A stretch of DNA of 64,000 bases. Source: an uncultured Lachnospiraceae bacterium (GTDB lineage: Bacteria > Bacillota > Clostridia > Lachnospirales > Lachnospiraceae). Shown one piece after another: positions 6,317 through 55,653 of this stretch. Where the stretch lies: the NCBI GenBank assembly GCA_905234595.1, contig CAJOID010000013.1, positions 1-64,000 of the forward strand, in the 5' to 3' direction. The first letter of the stretch is position 1; each line of letters opens with the position of its first letter. The position numbers and the translations under genes are program-made. A model generated the notes under the pieces. The model searched no databases. It was not told the origin of the DNA and was given only the letters and a program-made list of their open reading frames with translations.

Positions 6317-8795
6317 GATGTCTAATAAAAAGAAAAAGCACAATACCGTTATTTCGAAATTCCTGCAGCATGTACTTATTACCGTGGCAGCCGTTATGCT
6401 GCTCATGTACGTGGCAAGTTCCATTGTAGTGGTCAGTTCATATGACAAGAATGAGATATACCACTTAAGTACCGGTGATCAGGGACGTGCATATGAGGAT
6501 TCGGTATTTTTTAATACTGTTCTCGGCAAGGAAACAGAGGGACTGCTCAAATATGTGACGATCCGGACCCAGATGGAAACCGACGGGGCTTATGATCCCG
6601 ATAAGATCATAGATGTGACCACCTACAATGCGAGACAGGAGAACGGATACAGTGACACAGGCAATGTTACTGCGCAGTATCATCTCGGGGATCTGCTCAA
6701 GTGGACTAAATACGGTTTCGAATACAAGGATGTGGAAGTAAGGACCGATACCGTATCAAGTAATTATCTGAACAAAAACGTATATGATTCACCGGATGGT
6801 GGGGAGACAGCCGATCTCTACGGCACGGATTATAACGATACATATTCCATGCTCATCAACCGGTATAATACCGCTGACGGTCATGTGATCGAAGAACTTG
6901 CGGATAACTGGAACGATTATTATATGCTGACCGGCATGATCCAGTCCTGCTCCGAAGATCTGTACTATAACTATACGGATTACTTAAAGTTAAGCGATTA
7001 TTATAATGCACTTAATTCCAATATCAGATACTGGATCATCATGGGGGATGGTGCGGACAGTACGGTCTATACCAATACTGCGCTGAAAGCCGCTGATGAA
7101 GCCAAAGTGGCATCCGCATTCAAGGCTTACGGCAGATACATAAGCTATGATGTCGACCGGATGGTCTATGACACCAATACCGCCATAAATGAATCCGCGT
7201 TTAATTCATTGATATCCAGATACAGATATGCATATCCGGATGACTGCAGGATATACATAGGAGTGGATATGACGATGCCCGCGGATGATGCCGTGAGATC
7301 AGCCAGATCAGGCTTCGTATCCACATATCTGCCTGATACGGATATCACCTTCGGGATCATTGCCCTGTGTATCATAGGATATCTGATACTGCTTGTGATA
7401 TGCACGATACGTGAAGGCGTTGAACGTAACGAAGACGGCACCAAAACCATCAGATTTACCGACTTTGACAATACCCCGATAGAACTCTGGCTTATCATAT
7501 TTGCGGTTATTCTGGTACTGTTTATCGGAATCCCGGCTGCTATTGCATCAACATATTTTGACAGCTTCAGGTACGAAGCGATGAGTATCCTGAAGGATAT
7601 ATATGTCTATGTCATATTCGGTGTGGTAGTATTCATTTTCGATGTACTGATGCTCTGGCTGTATTACTCTCTGGTCAGACGTATCAGAGGCCGCCATATC
7701 TGGAAGCAGAGTTTCCTGTATAAAGTCCTGAATGCCATAGGACAGGGCGCGGTCAAGGTATACGACAACGGGAATCTGCTGCTCAGGAGTGTGGTTCCTT
7801 ATGCAGGACTTCTGCTGCTCAATCTGTTCCTGATAGTCATGACTGCTGTTTCGGATGATAATCTCGTACAGTTTATGCTCATAGCCGTGCTCATAGTGAT
7901 CGATGCTCTGGCAGGGGTATTTATCTACAAGCAGGTAAAAGACCGTGATCAGATCATGTCCGGCATGAAGAGGATCATATCCGGCGATCTGTCATACAAA
8001 GCGGATGTAAGTGCAGTCCATGGCGATAACAGGGAACTCGGGATATGTGTCAATTCAATAGGTGAGTCGGTACGCAATGCGGTAGAACAGAGCATGAAGG
8101 ATGAGCGTATGAAGACCGAGCTGCTCGCAAACGTCAGCCATGATATACGTACTCCTCTGACCAGCATCATCAACTATGTGGACCTGATCAAGCGTGAGAA
8201 CATAGATGACATGAAGATCGCAAGCTATGTGGATATTCTGGATGAGAAATCACAGCGTCTCAAGACTCTGACAGATGACCTGATCGAAGCCAGCAAAGTT
8301 TCAAGCGGAAATGTGGAGCTTGAACTCATGAAGATGAATCTGCCCGAGATGGTAACACAGGCTCTCGCCGAGTTCGATGAGAGACTGGCTGAGAAAAACC
8401 TGTCGGTTGTAACAAATACGGAGAATCTGACCATACCTTCGATGATGGCTGACGGTAAGAGCTTATGGAGAGTCATGGAGAATCTGCTGAGTAACGTATG
8501 CAAGTACGCTATGCCGGGCACGAGAGTATTCGTAGATATGTTTAATCGTGATGGCGGTGATACCGGTATGGATATAAGTCTCAGGATCACCAATACATCC
8601 GAGATACCGCTTCCGTCAGATCTCACCGAACTGACAGAGCGCTTCAGCAGAGGCGATACGGCACGCACGACAGAAGGCTCGGGTCTGGGGCTCTCCATCG
8701 CCAAGTCACTCACGGAATTGATGGGCGGCACGTTCCGTCTGTTCTCCGAAGCTGACCTGTTCAAGGCAGAGATCACGTTTAAAGCAGTTCAGTAA
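6303..8795 (+). CDS. Membrane sensor histidine kinase
   Basis: N-terminal TM, large extracytoplasmic region, further TMs, HAMP-like region, HisKA (ELLANVSHDIRTPLTSIINYVDLI) and HATPase (GSGLGLSIAKSL); overlaps the response regulator gene. Confidence 0.92.
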   Translation: MRGAKMSNKKKKHNTVISKFLQHVLITVAAVMLLMYVASSIVVVSSYDKNEIYHLSTGDQGRAYEDSVFFNTVLGKETEGLLKYVTIRTQMETDGAYDPDKIIDVTTYNARQENGYSDTGNVTAQYHLGDLLKWTKYGFEYKDVEVRTDTVSSNYLNKNVYDSPDGGETADLYGTDYNDTYSMLINRYNTADGHVIEELADNWNDYYMLTGMIQSCSEDLYYNYTDYLKLSDYYNALNSNIRYWIIMGDGADSTVYTNTALKAADEAKVASAFKAYGRYISYDVDRMVYDTNTAINESAFNSLISRYRYAYPDDCRIYIGVDMTMPADDAVRSARSGFVSTYLPDTDITFGIIALCIIGYLILLVICTIREGVERNEDGTKTIRFTDFDNTPIELWLIIFAVILVLFIGIPAAIASTYFDSFRYEAMSILKDIYVYVIFGVVVFIFDVLMLWLYYSLVRRIRGRHIWKQSFLYKVLNAIGQGAVKVYDNGNLLLRSVVPYAGLLLLNLFLIVMTAVSDDNLVQFMLIAVLIVIDALAGVFIYKQVKDRDQIMSGMKRIISGDLSYKADVSAVHGDNRELGICVNSIGESVRNAVEQSMKDERMKTELLANVSHDIRTPLTSIINYVDLIKRENIDDMKIASYVDILDEKSQRLKTLTDDLIEASKVSSGNVELELMKMNLPEMVTQALAEFDERLAEKNLSVVTNTENLTIPSMMADGKSLWRVMENLLSNVCKYAMPGTRVFVDMFNRDGGDTGMDISLRITNTSEIPLPSDLTELTERFSRGDTARTTEGSGLGLSIAKSLTELMGGTFRLFSEADLFKAEITFKAVQ

Positions 8796-8806
8796 AACTG
8801 AAAAAC

Positions 8807-8963
8807 GGCCGGTGCAACTATATATCCACAAGCAGGTGCTTAGCAGCCCGTCGTTACTTGGCGAGGTATTTCACGAGCCTAGTAACGTGACGAGGCAATC
8901 AAGCAGCCGGACGTAAAGAACACGTCCAAGCGTGCCTGCGGTGGATGTATAGTTGCACCGGCC
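8807..8963. repeat. Structured intergenic element, copy 1 (23-nt terminal inverted arms, conserved 70-nt core)
   Basis: 5' arm ggccggtgcaactatatatccac (8807-8829) and 3' arm gtggatgtatagttgcaccggcc (8941-8963) are complementary; core 8830-8899 is identical to the reverse complement of 14716-14785. Confidence 0.85.
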
Positions 8964-8970
8964 TAACTTT

Positions 8971-10158
8971 TTAGAACGTGAACTCTTCGCGATTGTTATA
9001 TCGATCGAGTATCTTGCGTATTTTCTCGGTAGGCGTATTTAAGTCGGACATTGGCGCATCGTGATTCATGAAGTCTATGATGGATGCGATGAATTTGCCC
9101 ATATCGGCCTGCAGATAGTAAGGTCTGGTATAGAGCTCGGGGTTGATATAATTCAGATTCGTGGTTATGATCCTGTCGAAATAGCATTTCTCATATGCCT
9201 CATCAAAAGCGGCGAGTCCGTCCGTGAATAATCCGAATGTAGTGCATATATATACACGTTTTGCATTCATCTCCTTGAGCTGTCTGGCAGTATCTATCAT
9301 GGAACCGCCCGAAGATATCATATCATCGATGATGATGCAGTCCTTGCCGTCTATGTTGTCACCCAGGAATTCATGAGCGACTATGGGGTTCTTACCGTTC
9401 ACCATCTTGGTATAGTCACGCCTCTTGTAGAACATGCCGGCATCGAGTCCGAGAACGGAAGCGAAGTAGATGGATCTGTCGAGTGCGCCTTCATCGGGAG
9501 ATATGATTATGGTATGGTCCTTGTCGATGATCATATCACGCTCATTGCTGAGCAGGGTTCTCGCGAACTGGTACATTGCATTGAAGTTATCGAATCCGGT
9601 GAACGGAGCCGAGTTCTGTATACGCGGATCGTGGGCATCAAATGTGATGAAGTTTGCGATACCCATACCGGAGAGTTCTTTGAACATATACGCGGCATCC
9701 AGTGATTCACGTCCGCTGCGCTTATGCTGCCTGCCTTCATAGAGGAAAGGCATGATCACATTGACACGGTGAGCCTTGCCGTCGATGGCGGCAACTATAC
9801 GCTTTAAGTCCTGGAAATGGTCATCGGGAGAATAATGATTCTCAAATCCCTGCATATTATATGTAAGGGAGTGGTTGGTGACATCGGTGATTATGAATAT
9901 ATCATCTCCGCGGATGGAGTCGAGCAGAGTGCATTTGCTCTCGCCGCTGCCGAATCTGGGCAGATCTATGCGGGCAATGTAATTATCTTTGATATATCCC
10001 TGAAAAGCAGGATCGGCCTTGAATTTATTGTGCAGATCCTGACGGAATTCGATCAGATAGCGGTTGACGCTGCTACCGAGTTTTTCTGCGCAGGGGGGAA
10101 CTATGAGTTTGATCGGGGCAACAGCCATTAATTGCTCCAGTTTCTGTATATTTGCCAT
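8971..10158 (-). CDS. prs: Ribose-phosphate pyrophosphokinase (long form, 395 aa)
   Basis: PRPP-binding loop DCIIIDDMISSGGSMIDTARQLKEM, PFLYEGRQHKRSGRE, FDAHDPRIQN motifs. Confidence 0.88.
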   Translation of the reverse strand: MANIQKLEQLMAVAPIKLIVPPCAEKLGSSVNRYLIEFRQDLHNKFKADPAFQGYIKDNYIARIDLPRFGSGESKCTLLDSIRGDDIFIITDVTNHSLTYNMQGFENHYSPDDHFQDLKRIVAAIDGKAHRVNVIMPFLYEGRQHKRSGRESLDAAYMFKELSGMGIANFITFDAHDPRIQNSAPFTGFDNFNAMYQFARTLLSNERDMIIDKDHTIIISPDEGALDRSIYFASVLGLDAGMFYKRRDYTKMVNGKNPIVAHEFLGDNIDGKDCIIIDDMISSGGSMIDTARQLKEMNAKRVYICTTFGLFTDGLAAFDEAYEKCYFDRIITTNLNYINPELYTRPYYLQADMGKFIASIIDFMNHDAPMSDLNTPTEKIRKILDRYNNREEFTF

Positions 10159-14656: not shown

Positions 14657-14671
14657 ACTTTTAGCAACACA

Positions 14672-14808
14672 GGGAATGACAAGCATACATCCGCCGCAGG
14701 CACGCTTTCGCTGCTATTGCCTCGTCACGTTACTAGGCTCGTGAAATACCTCGCCAAGTAACGACGGGCTGCTAAGCACCTGCTTGCGGATATGTGCTTG
14801 CCATTCCC
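14672..14808. repeat. Structured intergenic element, copy 2 (inverted relative to copy 1)
   Basis: Terminal arms gggaatgacaagcatacatccgc (14672-14694) and gcggatatgtgcttgccattccc (14786-14808); core 14716-14785 is the exact reverse complement of 8830-8899. Confidence 0.85.
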
Positions 14809-14830: not shown

Positions 14831-15652
14831 ATGTCAAATAAATTTTCTTCCACAAATACATACGTGGCCAGCCAGGAACTGCTCGACGCTGTAAACGTAG
14901 CGATGGTCTTAGAGAAGCCCCTCCTGATCAAAGGAGAACCCGGCACCGGCAAGACCATGCTGGCAGCAGCAGTTGCAGAGAGCCTCGGCAAGCGTCTGAT
15001 CATATGGAACATCAAGTCGACCACCAAGGCACAGGACGGCCTGTATATGTATGATACGATCCAGCGTCTCTATGACGGCCAGTTCGGCGAAGAAGGCGTG
15101 GATGATATCGCCAGGTACATCAAGCTCGGCAAACTCGGAGAAGCGTTTAAGTCCGACGAGCAGGTGGTTCTTCTTATCGATGAGATCGATAAAGCGGATC
15201 TGGAGTTCCCCAATGACCTGCTCTGGGAACTCGATCAGATGGAGTTCTATATCCATGAGACCCGTGAGACGGTCAAGGCGAAGACCAGACCAGTGGTGAT
15301 CATTACATCCAATGCGGAAAAGGAACTCCCCGATGCTTTCTTAAGGAGATGCATATTCCACTATATTGACTTCCCGGATGCACCGCTGATGGAGGAGATA
15401 GTGAGGACACACTTCCCTGATGTGGAAGCCAATCTGCTTAAAAATGCGATGGATGTATTCTACTGGATAAGAGGCCTTAAGGATGTGCGCAAGAAGCCGT
15501 CGACATCCGAACTCATAGACTGGGTCAACGCCCTTCAGATAGGCGGAATGGATCCTGCACTTATCAAAAAGAACCTGCCCAATCTCGGTGTAGTCATCAA
15601 GAAGGATGAAGACATGGCCGTGGTTAAGAGCAGGACCAACGAACTGAACTGA
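14831..15652 (+). CDS. MoxR-type AAA+ ATPase
   Basis: LLIKGEPGTGKTMLAAAVAESLG Walker A, VVLLIDEIDKADLEFPNDLLWELD Walker B; aggagataacATG start. Confidence 0.9.
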   Translation: MSNKFSSTNTYVASQELLDAVNVAMVLEKPLLIKGEPGTGKTMLAAAVAESLGKRLIIWNIKSTTKAQDGLYMYDTIQRLYDGQFGEEGVDDIARYIKLGKLGEAFKSDEQVVLLIDEIDKADLEFPNDLLWELDQMEFYIHETRETVKAKTRPVVIITSNAEKELPDAFLRRCIFHYIDFPDAPLMEEIVRTHFPDVEANLLKNAMDVFYWIRGLKDVRKKPSTSELIDWVNALQIGGMDPALIKKNLPNLGVVIKKDEDMAVVKSRTNELN

Positions 15653-31750: not shown

Positions 31751-34700
31751 ATGAATATTAGTTTATCGATACTGCTGGTCACTTTAGCTATAGTGGCAGC
31801 TGTTGCATTCAAGGTCATATATACGGGCAAGGTTAAGGAAGTCAATGATTCGCTGAGATTGATATGCGTATTCGGAGTGATCACCATATCCTTTTGCGCT
31901 CTTATCACCGTTTCATCCAAAGAAACGGCCACTTTCACGCTGTATACGATCTACTATATATTCTATGCGCTGACGATATATGCGTTTGTCAGATTTACTT
32001 ACATTTTCTGTAAGGGTAAAAGACGCTTGTTGTTTATGTCTCCGTTTTTTATCGGGACTCTGATAGTTATCCTGTTATTATTGTGGAATATGTATTCGCA
32101 GGAAGTCTTTACCGTATCCACATACTCCTTTGCGGGCGTGATATTCCCTGCTTCCGTAACTTACAGTCTGTTTCTTTTCTATATGGGATTTCTGGTAGTG
32201 GAATCTGTGTCTGCCGGAATAAATGCATTCAGATATATGCTTAAGAGTGCCAGGATCTATAAGGCACGCTATGCTTATATTATTTTTGTCATATTATTCC
32301 ACCTGGCTCTTGAGTTTATCGGATATTACCAATCGATCCCTACGGTTATCAAGGCGTTTTTCCTGTTACCTGAAGGCCTGTTCCTGGCTTATATATCAAG
32401 TTCGTTTACTACGCGTAAACTGACCATGTCTGTTCTGACTCATGTGATGGACAATACATCCGACGGTCTGATGATCTATGACGAGAATGATTATCTCATG
32501 TATCACAACAAAAGGACCGAGGATATCCTGACACCTGAGCAGCTGGCAGACTTCTATGAGATGAACCGGATAGATGAGTGGAGTTCCCAGCTGGAGGAGT
32601 TCAACGGTATCAATATCAAATCAATGGAGGTCGACGGCAAGAAATGCTATTTCAATATCTACAAGCATTCATTTGTTGAGAACGGCTCATATATCGGTAC
32701 CAGTTATCAGTTCCAGGATATAACGGAATCCTTTGAACGGTTCTCCATGATCGAAGAGACCAATGAAGAACTCAAGCGCGCAGCTCATATGAAATCCGAT
32801 TTCCTCGCAAATATGAGCCATGAGATACGTACTCCCATGAATGCGGTCATAGGACTGGCCGAGATGTCTCTCAGAGAGGAGATGACCGACCAGGCACGTG
32901 ATTATATATCCCAGATCAAGTCTTCGGGACGTAATCTGCTCAATATCATCAATGACATTCTGGATTTCTCCAAGATCGAATCCGGCAAGATGGATATCAT
33001 ACCTGAAGAATATGAACCCTTGAGCGAATTCAATGATGTTGCGAACACCCTTGTCACGAGGATAGGCGATAAGGATCTGGAACTCACCATGGAGGAGAAT
33101 CCCAATGTTCCCACAAGGCTGTACGGTGATGTCCTGAGGATCAGGCAGATACTGGTAAATCTCGCGAACAATGCCATAAAGTTCACTGATCACGGGCGCG
33201 TTCAGATAATCAATGATTATGAAAAGATCGATGATGAGACGATAATGCTCAGATTTCATGTTGTTGACACCGGACGCGGTATCAAAAAAGAAGATCTGAA
33301 GAAACTGTTTGTTTCTTTCCAGCAGGTTGATTCCAAACGGAACCGTTCCATAGAGGGTACGGGTCTCGGACTGGCCATATCCAAATCCCTGGTGGAAGCC
33401 ATGGGAGGAAGCATCGGAGTAGAGAGTGAATACGGTAAGGGCAGTGATTTCTATTTTGAGATCCCCCAGAAGGTGGTAAGCTGGTCACCGTCGATCGTGG
33501 TAGAGAACCCCGAAAACATATTTGCCATGGGTATGTTTCACAAGAAGTACCTGGCCAGAAGGTTTTTCCTTGATTGCTCCAGGATGGGTGTGTTTAATGT
33601 CGTGCTCAAATTCGCTGAAGATTATGAAGATACATGTGATCTGTATGCGGATATGCTTGATGATCACCGCAGATACCTGTTCTTTGAAGAAAAAGACTAT
33701 AAGGATCAGGTGAGGGAACTGCTTTTGAATGATCCCGATCTTGTAGGAGTCATGCTTGCTGATTTCGGATCTGTTTTCAAGCCGGATCTTAAGAATCTGC
33801 GTATGATCAGGAAGCCTTTTTCAACTGCTGCGATCGCCATAGCTCTTAATAATATGGAGTTCAACCTGAATAACGAGGATGGAAAAGCTTTTTCAACGGA
33901 TTTCACCGCTCCGGATGCCAGGATCCTGATAGTTGATGATAACATGGTCAATCTGACTGTCGCAGAAGGGCTTCTTGAACCTCTGAAGATGCAGATCGAT
34001 TGTGCGGCATCGGGTAAGGAAGCCATCGATCTGATCAATGTAAACAGGTATGATATCGTATTCATGGATCATATGATGCCTGAGATGGATGGTGTTGAGA
34101 CTACGCATATCATCAGGAGAATGTATCCTGAGATGGAAAACATGCCTATCATTGCATTGACTGCAAATGCCGTCAGCGGCGTTAAAGAATTTTTCCTCAA
34201 GGAAGGCATGAATGATTTCATACCCAAGCCTATCGAGATCAGGGAGATCATGTCCAAGGTTAAACAATGGCTTCCTTCGGAGAAGATAGTTAAGGGCTAT
34301 GAACTGGTTAATAACAGTGATGAACCTGAAGAATCGATCATGATCCCGGGGCTTGATACCGAAAAAGCCATAGGAATGATCGGTTCCGTACAGCTGTATC
34401 TTAAAATCCTGAATGAGTATTACAGGAATATAGAACCCAATCATTCACAGCTTGAAAAAGAATATTCCGGAGAAAACTGGGCTGAATATACCGTTAAAGT
34501 TCATGCGCTTAAGAGCTCATCCCGCCAGATAGGTGCTATCTGTCTGGCTGATAAGGCTGCCAAACTCGAAGAGGCCGGTAAGGCAGGAGACATCGGATAC
34601 ATACGCGCCAACAATTCGGATGCTCTTGATGAATATCTTGCACTGAAGGCTGTGTTAAGAGAATACTGCGCGCCGGATGATGCAGGCGAAAAGAAGATCA

Positions 34701-34912: not shown

Positions 34913-35991
34913 TCGTTTTCCCGGATAAATTTAAGATGACGGGAACTGATGCAGGCAGATCAGCTGACGGCCGGGATATCATTAACCTGCAGATAACGGT
35001 CTCCGATACAGGTACAGGTATCTCAAAGGAGGATCTGGGCAAACTTTTTGCCAAATTCGAACGTCTGGATCTGGAGAGGAACAGTACCAAGGAAGGTACG
35101 GGACTGGGGCTTGCCATAACCAAGAGACTGCTCGACATGATGAACGGCAGTATCGAGGTTGAGAGCGAGTATGGCTGGGGATCGACTTTTAAGCTCACTA
35201 TTCCTCAGGTTGTGACTTCGCGTGAGTCTATAGGCAATTTTAAAGAGAAATTCGAGAAGAGTCTCGGAGAAAAAGCGGAATACCATGAGAGCTTCAGGGC
35301 GCCCGATGCGAAGATCCTGATAGTGGATGATACCAGGATGAACCTGATAGTCGCGACGCAGTTCCTTAAGGATACGGGCCTCAATATAGATACTGCAGGA
35401 GGTGGCAGGGAGGCTGTCGAACTCGCGCTTGAGAGTAAATATGATGTGATCCTGATGGACCAGCGTATGCCCGAAATGGATGGTGCGGCTGCTCTTAAGG
35501 AGATAAAATCTCATACGGACGGACCGAACATAGATACTCCCGTGATATGTCTTACGGCTGATGCCGTGATCGGAGCCAGAGAAAGATATCTCGCCAAAGG
35601 CTTTAACGACTATCTGACCAAACCGATTGATTCGATATCTCTGGAATCGATGCTCAGGAAGTATCTGCCTGCGGAATATGTAAGTACCTTCCCCGATAAA
35701 AAGGAAATCCTTGATAACTCGCTGGCGGAAGGTGACTTGGAACTCTATGGGGTGAATGTACATTCTCTTAAGAGTACTTCGGCAGTCATTGGCGCAGAAA
35801 GCGTACGTACTATTGCAGCTAAACTTGAAAAAGCAGCAATGTCGGGCGAGAATAAGGATCTTACACCGGATCATGAAGACCTGATGAGACTTTATGAGAG
35901 TGTTATGAGATCTATCAGTTCCGTAATAACCGATGAAGCGGTTCCTGCGGAAGATGATGACGGGGATATCCTGGAGTTTGCACCGGATTAG
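34909..35991 (+). pseudogene. 5'-truncated hybrid histidine kinase (HATPase remnant, REC, Hpt); lacks sensor and HisKA
   Basis: Starts within HATPase (LQITVSDTGTGISKEDLGKLFAKFERLD...GTGLGLAITKRLL), then REC and Hpt (VHSLKSTSAVIGA). No sensor, HisKA or N-box. Strong similarity to the C-terminal half of 53038-55653. Confidence 0.75.
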
Positions 35992-53037: not shown

Positions 53038-55653
53038 TCAGTCGGGTTCAAACTCGAGGATCTCTTCATCAGAATCCGATGTATCTTCGCCGTTCTTATC
53101 GTATTCTTTCTTAAGAGTATCGACTACGGCGCTGTAGAGATCCAACATGGAATCATGTTCTTTATCAATGGCCGCGGTGTCTCCGACATCAGCGGCCTTT
53201 TCCATACGTCTGGCTGTCTCTGAGAGTTCCATTGCGCCTATCATCTTGGAAGAACTCTTGAGAGCATGAGCTGTTATCGCATAGTTTTTCCAGTCACCGG
53301 TGCTTCGGCTTTCATTAAGAACGAAAGTCTTACGATCGGAATCATTGATATATTCGTCCACAAGTTCTTTGTACAACGACTCGTCACCGCCGCAGAAAGA
53401 CATGGCTTCAGACTTGTCAATATACGGAGAATTACTGTCATAAGCCACCGATACGACCGGAGCGACCGCCTCGAATTCCTTATGGACTTTTTCCGACGGC
53501 AGATATTTGAGCAGAAGCCTTTCGAGGTTGTGTGAATCGATAGGCTTGGAAAGATAATCGTCAAAGCCTTCAGCCAGGTATTTATCCTTTGCACCGGTTA
53601 CGGCATCAGCCGTCAGGCATATAAAGGGCGTATTCTTATTCTGACTTCCCGCATCCTCTTTGATCCGGTTCATCGCTGTGATACCGTCCATTTCGGGCAT
53701 ACGCTGGTCCATGAGTATTAGATCATAGCAGTTCGATCTGCACAGTTCGATCGATTCGGCGCCGCTTTCGGCAGTATCTATCAGGATTCCGGTATTCTTG
53801 AGCAGCCCTTTGGCGACCACGAGGTTCATGATCGTATCATCAACGATAAGTATATGCGCATCCGGAGCGTGGAAGGCTTCTTTACGGGCTTTCTGTGCTT
53901 TGATCATCTGCTCGAACTTTTCACGGAAATCGCCTATAGGTTCGTCGACAGTGACTTTTTGAGGTAATGTGATCGTAAAGAGGGATCCCTTGCCGTATTC
54001 ACTCTGGACCTCTATATGTCCGTTCATCATACTCAGCAGGCTCTGTGTTATGGCAAGTCCCAGACCGGTACCTTCGATGGTGCTGTTCTGGTTTAGGTTT
54101 ACACGTTCGAATTTGCCGAAAAGTTTATCGATGTCTTCTTCTTTAATACCGATACCGGTATCCTTTACACCGACTATCAGGTCTATGTAACGGTCGCCGT
54201 TATCAGAAGTGACAGTCCCGGCGGATGAACGGACGGAGAGTGTGATACTGCCTTCGTGAGTGTATTTGACGGCATTATTGAGTATGTTGGTTATGACCTG
54301 GCGTACACGCAGCTCATCGCCATACAGGACGTCGGGAACCGTATCATCCACATCCACATGGAAATCCAGGCCTTTTGATTTGGCTTTGAATGAGATCATG
54401 TTGCTTACATCATTAAGGACGGAGCTTAACTGATAATCGGCGTTCACGATCTCCATTTTGCCGGCTTCGATCTTGGAGAAATCAAGTATATCGTTGATGA
54501 TAGACAGCAGACTGTTGCCGGCACTTGTGATATTACCGGAGTAGTTGCATATATTGGCGAAGGTCTTGCGGATATCGCTCCGGTCTTCGGGCAGATCATC
54601 CCTGGACTGCAGCGCCTCGCGGAAGATCATCTCATTCATGCCCAGAACGGCATTGATGGGAGTCCTGATCTCATGGGACATATTTGCGAGAAAGTCGCTT
54701 TTGGATGCATTGGAGCGTTCGGCAATAGCTTTAGCTGTCTTGAATTCTTCACTCTCGGCGGATTTACGCTCGAGACTCACTACGAGGATAATGGTCAGAG
54801 AGAAGGAGACGATGACTATTGATACGACGAAAAGCATTACTGCTATAACGCTGTAGGGATCTGTTTCCCCTGTCCCGTTGATGCCGGCTGCCAGTGTATT
54901 TCTCATCCACAGAGCGACCAGATAACCTCCTATACAGCATATGGCCACAAAGGTGATGTAGAGCGGACGAAATGCCTTATGGATCTGCCCCGAACCGCTG
55001 AATCCGTTGTATATACCGAGTTTTCGATATACGGCGATGATAGAGCAGGGGATCAGTATGAGGCACAGACCCTCGAGTATGGATGCATAATTATAGGGAT
55101 TGAGAGCTTCCGAAGGCCAGTCAAAACATGACGAGGTCCACATGGTGTATTCGCATACTATATACAGAAAAGTCGTATATGCAACATACGGAGGCCGTGC
55201 ATTGTTTTTTCTGTTATTTATATAATAGAGAATGGAATTAATGCTTAAACATACGCTGACAGTACTCAGAATACCCTGCCAGGCATTGTTGAAATATCCG
55301 CCATATTGGATGTAGAGCAGGAACTGGGCAATATTGAGCGGAACAGGGATCAGACATAAAGGATTGAAGTATCCCTTTTCCTCATGATATCTGGTGTGAT
55401 ATATCAGAAAAGGCATTACCAGATATGCACAGTTCCAGCCGAAATATGCCATGATGGATGAAACGTTGGGATAATCGATCATCACCAGCATGTATATACA
55501 CCAATAATAGTTAGAGAGCAGACTGCTTAAGAAAAAGACTATGCCGTATATCCAGGATCTGCGGGGATGCCTGACATACTGGAAAAGGCAGATCATGATG
55601 GCAGTCAGGTTAAGCAACAGGGTCAGAATATTACCTATCTGTTCAAATAACAT
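53038..55653 (-). CDS. Hybrid histidine kinase (7TM, HisKA, HATPase, REC, Hpt)
   Basis: FLANMSHEIRTPINAVLGMNEMIFRE; GTGLGLAITQSLLSMMNG; ILIVDDTIMNLVVAKGLL...LMDQRMPEMDG; Hpt AHALKSSSKMIGAMEL. Confidence 0.93.
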   Translation of the reverse strand: MLFEQIGNILTLLLNLTAIMICLFQYVRHPRRSWIYGIVFFLSSLLSNYYWCIYMLVMIDYPNVSSIMAYFGWNCAYLVMPFLIYHTRYHEEKGYFNPLCLIPVPLNIAQFLLYIQYGGYFNNAWQGILSTVSVCLSINSILYYINNRKNNARPPYVAYTTFLYIVCEYTMWTSSCFDWPSEALNPYNYASILEGLCLILIPCSIIAVYRKLGIYNGFSGSGQIHKAFRPLYITFVAICCIGGYLVALWMRNTLAAGINGTGETDPYSVIAVMLFVVSIVIVSFSLTIILVVSLERKSAESEEFKTAKAIAERSNASKSDFLANMSHEIRTPINAVLGMNEMIFREALQSRDDLPEDRSDIRKTFANICNYSGNITSAGNSLLSIINDILDFSKIEAGKMEIVNADYQLSSVLNDVSNMISFKAKSKGLDFHVDVDDTVPDVLYGDELRVRQVITNILNNAVKYTHEGSITLSVRSSAGTVTSDNGDRYIDLIVGVKDTGIGIKEEDIDKLFGKFERVNLNQNSTIEGTGLGLAITQSLLSMMNGHIEVQSEYGKGSLFTITLPQKVTVDEPIGDFREKFEQMIKAQKARKEAFHAPDAHILIVDDTIMNLVVAKGLLKNTGILIDTAESGAESIELCRSNCYDLILMDQRMPEMDGITAMNRIKEDAGSQNKNTPFICLTADAVTGAKDKYLAEGFDDYLSKPIDSHNLERLLLKYLPSEKVHKEFEAVAPVVSVAYDSNSPYIDKSEAMSFCGGDESLYKELVDEYINDSDRKTFVLNESRSTGDWKNYAITAHALKSSSKMIGAMELSETARRMEKAADVGDTAAIDKEHDSMLDLYSAVVDTLKKEYDKNGEDTSDSDEEILEFEPD

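Follow-up and report, generated by a model that had tools for sequence, protein, structure and literature searches.

The BOX repeats of Streptococcus pneumoniae are assembled from boxA-boxB(n)-boxC modules, and both TIRs and target duplications have been reported for them (PMC3049150). Mobile/repeat sequence candidates, of which MRSC-65-2 is one example in Narunsky et al. 2024 (PMC11109978), are multi-copy, covarying sequences of inconsistent orientation, which that account reads as selfish elements, possibly acting as DNA.

The element of interest was found in two copies in a stretch of 64,000 nucleotides from an uncultured Lachnospiraceae bacterium (contig CAJOID010000013.1), which is called the window below. 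We conclude that the element very probably belongs to a family of small mobile repeats that are non-autonomous, dispersed, MITE/BOX-like and specific to Lachnospiraceae. The copies are many and nearly all intergenic, one covarying fold is found in more than 100 genera, elements are present, absent or inverted at orthologous sites, the arms travel with the element, and copies of a TIR-framed subfamily in [Clostridium] symbiosum are flanked by 9–10 bp duplications.

Copy 1 (positions 8807–8963, + strand) is a palindromic element of 157 bp, i.e., under ~300 bp, with no assigned gene inside it. Direct reading places it between two convergent genes—a histidine kinase gene on the + strand, which ends at 8795, and prs on the − strand, which ends at 8971—and it fills most of the interval between the two gene ends. 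The covariance model of the family matches positions 8807–8964 on the + strand with 129.8 bits (E = 7e-28). The two terminal arms, GGCCGGTGCAACTATATATCCAC (8807–8829) and GTGGATGTATAGTTGCACCGGCC (8941–8963), form 23 pairs, one of them T.G; their sequence is hypervariable among copies. Inside the arms lie (i) the inner pairs of stem P1, GCAGG (8832–8836) with CCTGC (8935–8939), which are nearly invariant in the genus (alignment columns 26–30/133–137), (ii) the covarying stem P2, with its 5' strand TGC at 8837–8839 and its partner GCA at 8903–8905, (iii) the core hairpin, CCCGTCGTTACT-T-GGC-GA-loop-GA-GCC-T-AGTAACGTGACGAGG (8847–8895), which carries a U.U mismatch at 8859/8880 and a tandem G.A/A.G at 8863–8864/8875–8876, and (iv) the position of the mini-hairpin P3 (8906–8931), where an extra hairpin, GGACGTAAAGAACACGTCC (8909–8927), replaces the GNRA loop that other copies have. 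Much of this anatomy had been proposed in the initial annotation: the 157-bp length, the 23-bp terminal stem with one G-U, the extra hairpin, and the nested stems CGTC/GACG and GTTACT-T-GGC/GCC-T-AGTAAC are all present. The outer pairing drawn there, GCAGG..GCTT with AAGCGTGCCTGC, holds for GCAGG/CCTGC (i.e., P1), and the remainder is better drawn as P2.

Copy 2 (14671–14808, − strand; arms at 14786–14808 and 14672–14694) has gpsA on one side and an AAA ATPase gene on the other, is antisense to both, and scores 147.9 bits (E = 2.8e-32) with the family model. The 70-nt core of copy 1 (8830–8899) is, as the same annotation had noticed, 100% identical to that of copy 2, and a repeat finder independently recovered the pair (8814–8899 / 14716–14801) at 95%. 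The scores of the two window copies are far beyond chance. Both copies belong to the training set of the model; independent support thus comes from the out-of-sample matches. The longest open reading frame of the AAA ATPase gene begins at 14792, within copy 2, and the conserved start with a ribosome-binding site lies at 14831 (MSNKFSS), such that the overlap points to a spurious upstream start made by the repeat. Two other inverted repeat pairs were seen in the window, at 35440–35633 / 53534–53727 (72% over 194 nt) and 32935–32998 / 54448–54511 (84% over 64 nt).

Folding and alignment give all copies of the family one three-way-junction fold, consisting of a variable ~23-bp arm, a core hairpin and a GNRA mini-hairpin (family core sequence: CTTRGCGAGGTNNNNNACGAGCYTAG). 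P1 is the hypervariable arm pair of ~23 bp, which in the window's genus runs on into GCAGG/CCTGC. P2, a short covarying stem leading into the core hairpin, occurs as TGC/GCA, TAC/GTA and TAG/CTA; in an alignment of 27 copies from the window's genus (A1), P2 pair counts are GC 18 and AU 9, and CG 25 and GC 2. The tandem G.A/A.G is invariant across the same alignment, and the U.U mismatch is retained in 22 of the 27 copies. P3, a hairpin of only two pairs, ends in a GNRA loop (GAAA, GAGA, GGGA, GCAA, GCGA or GGAA) in 102 of ~115 parsed loops. Arms can be wholly different among copies with identical cores (L001–L004), and duplicated cores with intervening hairpins occur in copies L005, L008, L012 and L039.

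Several variant arrangements were observed alongside this standard form. The core hairpin of C. symbiosum copies L282, L284 and L286 is replaced or interrupted by another hairpin (e.g., ...ATGTGAAATTT...AAATTTCACAT...), and hence the core slot takes different modules. Core hairpins are also arranged as tandem direct arrays, with a spacing of ~46–150 bp, in other Lachnospiraceae (L066, L083, L110, L121, L146, L155 and similar loci); linkers of these arrays, e.g., GGTATAATGTGAAC...GAGAACATATACC, hold a TATAAT-like box, giving a second architecture with the same hairpin. Finally, nested outer palindromes (CAATGTCATTTAG..., then GTAACAGTTCAGCC...) enclose the element in some C. symbiosum copies (L278–L289, L042, L114), as if palindromic repeats insert into or beside each other.

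Beyond the two copies first noticed, about 15 are present in the window's own genome (15 by the covariance model, built from the A1 copies; 16 partial matches by DNA search) and many in relatives: the covariance model finds 11, 10, 3 and 10 copies in four congeners, and at least 127, from 150 scored candidates, were counted in a C. symbiosum genome. A genus-only model matches 104 of 299 genomes (103 of 298 genera) in a Lachnospiraceae sample, in which the per-genome copy counts are lower bounds with a top value of at least 11. Seven of 292 genomes match in a class-wide sample; six of these are Lachnospiraceae, and the seventh is represented by one weak partial match at a contig end. A pattern scan of named genomes placed the core hairpin in C. 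symbiosum, Enterocloster, Hungatella, Faecalicatena, Butyrivibrio, Eisenbergiella, Lachnoclostridium and others, and only one viral contig carries it. The element is a dispersed family that is practically confined to Lachnospiraceae, where it occurs in about a third of the sampled genomes. Rfam 15, searched at gathering and permissive thresholds with the window and 11 loci of other genera, returned no relevant match (only an unrelated FMN riboswitch). A description of the family was not found in the open-access literature, in a search that excluded supplements and ISfinder, and the family is apparently undescribed.

The combination of a fixed core with differing, complementary arms had been taken by the initial annotation as a sign that structure is maintained, and this is strongly supported by covariation. 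In A1, two-sided change is seen in 36 of 52 pairs, with 89% of cells paired and a covariation score of 0.46, as compared with 32–40% pairing and scores of 0.07–0.13 when the partners are slid. A second alignment (A2) comprises 116 matches that were fitted to the model, 114 of them distinct and almost none used in its training; it shows compensatory two-sided change in 51 of 52 pairs, 92% pairing and a score of 0.79 (slid partners: 32–49% and 0.09–0.15), values that are biased towards structure because A2 was aligned to the model. Stronger evidence than the A2 score is provided by the genus-only model, which recovers full-length matches in other genera (64 of 65 matches full length; E down to 1.2e-23). 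Taken together, the covariation is overwhelming. Every position of the family arms shows all four Watson-Crick pair types, with ~3% G.U; a small tRNA control has 4% G.U, near that of the arms, and so low G.U alone cannot tell RNA from DNA. The ratio of G.U to A.C mismatches in the arms was tried as a discriminator between RNA and DNA, using an alignment that gives G.U no advantage. The counts are 50:16 in the window's genus, 8:10 in C. symbiosum and 39:48 elsewhere; the ratio is biased in the genus and level elsewhere, and does not decide the matter.

The prs and gpsA sites were compared across six congeners, with the window's genome designated G000. The prs site holds the element in G000 and, in inverted form, in G002; in G001, G003 and G006 it is empty, i.e., a clean, short intergenic stretch with no palindrome. 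The gpsA site holds the element in G000 and G002, is empty in G001, G003 and G006, and in G004 contains a one-arm remnant with a deletion between ACAAG repeats. Comparison of the G002 prs site (L184) with window positions 8807–8963 shows the body of the element reversed with respect to the neighbouring genes, between conserved arms, which suggests recombination between the arms; the inversion implies that the arms are able to recombine, or that the element re-inserts. Identical arms are found at different loci (L043, L059, L195, L201, and two copies in L032), showing that the arms move together with the element. In G005, both orthologous sites (L182, L187) are occupied by inserts unrelated to the family, the one at prs being a simple hairpin, GGGGACGGTTTGGACCCCGTGATCCAAACCGTCCCC; these are possibly another repeat family in the same intergenic niches.

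Further traces of movement come from C. symbiosum, in which one copy (L260:6931–7068) has clean empty sites in two relatives. TIRs (CAATGTCATTTAGTTAA) frame one subfamily in C. symbiosum, which measures 195–243 bp overall in the copies examined. The arms of C. symbiosum copies sit inside conserved outer ends, CAGC...GCGTCC. Direct repeats of 9–10 bp flank 7 of 14 TIR-framed copies (AGGCTGAAT, GGGCTGAAC, CGGGCGGAA, CAGAAATAGT, GTTCATCCGC and two imperfect repeats), a number reached by none of 20,000 shuffles. DDE transposases typically leave duplications of this size. In the window's genus no target duplication is detectable (mean longest direct repeat of 4.39, vs 4.13 ± 0.17 in shuffled sequence), which is compatible with old insertions. 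Given that the duplications are seen only at homologous copies in another genus, and outside an extra TIR layer, their link to the window's element would be one of homology only.

All 32 informative copies in the window's genus are intergenic (ORF-based calls), and their orientations are evenly spread: 11 same-sense, 11 antisense, 5 convergent and 5 divergent. In the set from C. symbiosum and relatives, most copies are likewise intergenic (2 of 37 lie in called ORFs), and there is a lean towards antisense (18 of 35). Since orientation shows no preference in the window's genus, and neither orientation nor position is consistent relative to any gene class there, a cis-regulatory RNA—one of three readings offered by the initial annotation—is unsupported, as is a dedicated terminator in that genus. 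It also seems unlikely that the element is a structured RNA with its own function, such as a multi-copy small RNA or RNA domain, for which dispersal is secondary. The GNRA loops, with R always A or G in 102 of ~115 parsed loops, the invariant tandem G.A, the near-invariant U.U, the strong covariation and the excess of G.U over A.C (50:16) that the arms show in the window's genus would all suit such an RNA. However, orientation relative to neighbours in that genus is unbiased, divergent pairs included; opposite orientations occur at the same site in two species; no promoter-like site was seen near copy 1; and outside the genus G.U roughly equals A.C (8:10, 39:48), as expected if neither strand is preferred. 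A two-way transcription terminator, the second of the initial readings, or some other intergenic cis element has a slim chance of being the correct explanation. Most copies are hosted by codirectional gene pairs, and divergent promoters host them too; a terminator scan found no site at the copy 1 arms, orthologous sites without the element are normal, and a conserved three-way junction is unnecessary for termination. These points stand against the convergent genes that flank copy 1, and against the T-rich stretches (≥6 T in 8) that follow the stem in 35% and 16% of copies vs 2% at random positions, a background not matched to intergenic DNA. As T-rich stretches lie beyond the stems at some sites, incidental termination is possible, e.g., between the kinase gene and prs; the copy 1 stem may incidentally be a terminator between these two convergent genes, and termination amounts to no more than a by-product at some sites.

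The third initial reading, a MITE/REP-like non-autonomous element, is upheld by the copy number, the empty sites, the inversion and the target duplications in relatives, and is unsupported where REP is meant in the strict RAYT sense. An element of the REP/BIME type, moved by a RAYT (Y1 HUH) transposase that works on folded single-stranded DNA, would likewise be palindromic, intergenic and multi-copy, with conserved non-Watson-Crick positions in its hairpin, and related core hairpins do form tandem arrays in other genera. Such an origin is nevertheless very improbable: Y1_Tnp has no match in G000–G004 and G006, all of them carriers (82–99% complete drafts, the host genome included), the sole match, a partial one, is in G005, which has the fewest copies, no core hairpin was found at 12 Y1 loci, and Y1 enzymes do not produce target duplications such as those of 9–10 bp at the C. 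symbiosum form. Hardly tenable is the proposal that the arms are pre-existing genomic palindromes, e.g., terminators, into the loop of which the core was inserted. While it would accommodate the identical cores with completely different arms (L001–L004) and the further outer palindromes around some C. symbiosum copies, the same arms recur at different loci (L043, L059, L195, L201; two copies in L032) and the C. symbiosum arms lie within the conserved CAGC...GCGTCC ends. The proposal was rejected because the empty sites hold no palindrome.

The preferred explanation is a dispersed mobile repeat, on the copies of which a transposase encoded elsewhere would act in trans; the family is putatively parasitic, and no host function is assigned to the element at the window site. 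The 9–10 bp duplications point to a DDE enzyme for the C. symbiosum TIR subfamily. An autonomous element with the C. symbiosum TIR was sought in nine genomes, and no TIR pair at insertion-sequence distance was present among the matches listed; the lack of an autonomous element with matching ends weakens the claim to a classic MITE and leaves mobility unaffected. What is unusual about the family is the contrast of a fixed core with arms that are hypervariable, keep a constant length and almost always remain complementary. The arms evolve much faster than the core, and simple copy-and-drift is insufficient without a correction process or selection. Selection acting on the folded strand, arm-to-arm correction together with arm-mediated inversion, or both could keep the arms complementary, and the folded core may be the part that is recognised or protected; the conserved core mismatches would have to be selected, because correction alone would erase them. 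A tentative and rather doubtful extension is that an enzyme of Lachnospiraceae moves or recognises the element when it is folded as single-stranded DNA or RNA, reading the three-way junction, including the U.U and the tandem G.A, and measuring a fixed arm of ~23 bp, such that arm sequence is free and both arms are rewritten together.

Lachnospiraceae are dominant gut bacteria of human and rumen. A repeat that occurs in about a third of their sampled genomes, with over a hundred copies in some, is yet apparently unnamed in Rfam and in the open literature searched. Its conserved structure and free arm sequence provide an unusually clean system for studying the origin of compensatory change (folded-strand selection vs DNA palindrome correction). 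Uses are also foreseen in genome annotation (cf. the spurious start at copy 2), in strain typing (as with BOX and ERIC), and in the search for the moving enzyme.

Comparison with known systems places the family close to, and apart from, each of them. Like BOX (PMC3049150), it consists of short intergenic repeats, interspersed in many copies, that have a strong predicted fold and ends that pair around a central module, which may be present in duplicate (here in L005, L008, L012 and L039). Unlike BOX, in which the end modules are conserved, its arms are hypervariable and its core is fixed; the host family also differs, and the comparison extends to architecture only. It shares with REP/BIME and the REPINs moved with RAYTs the extragenic palindromes and conserved mismatches, and differs from them in its three-way junction and in that most carrier genomes of the genus are without a Y1/RAYT gene. 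The nearest published category, as set out in PMC11109978, is that of the mobile/repeat sequence candidates. The example published there, MRSC-65-2, forms one long stem containing a UYCCGG repeat and comes from diverse phyla, whereas the present family has a three-way junction and a CGAGG...CGAGC core, and occurs almost only in Lachnospiraceae. Like the bacterial MITEs (RUP, Correia elements, Nezha), the family is non-autonomous and under 250 bp, with inverted-repeat ends, a strong fold and, at C. symbiosum copies, target duplications. In contrast to MITEs, no parental insertion sequence was found for it; it shows fixed terminal repeats in one subfamily only, and conserves an internal three-way junction with non-Watson-Crick motifs. 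The family is MITE/BOX-like in behaviour, with the pattern of conservation inverted: the ends are free and the core is fixed.
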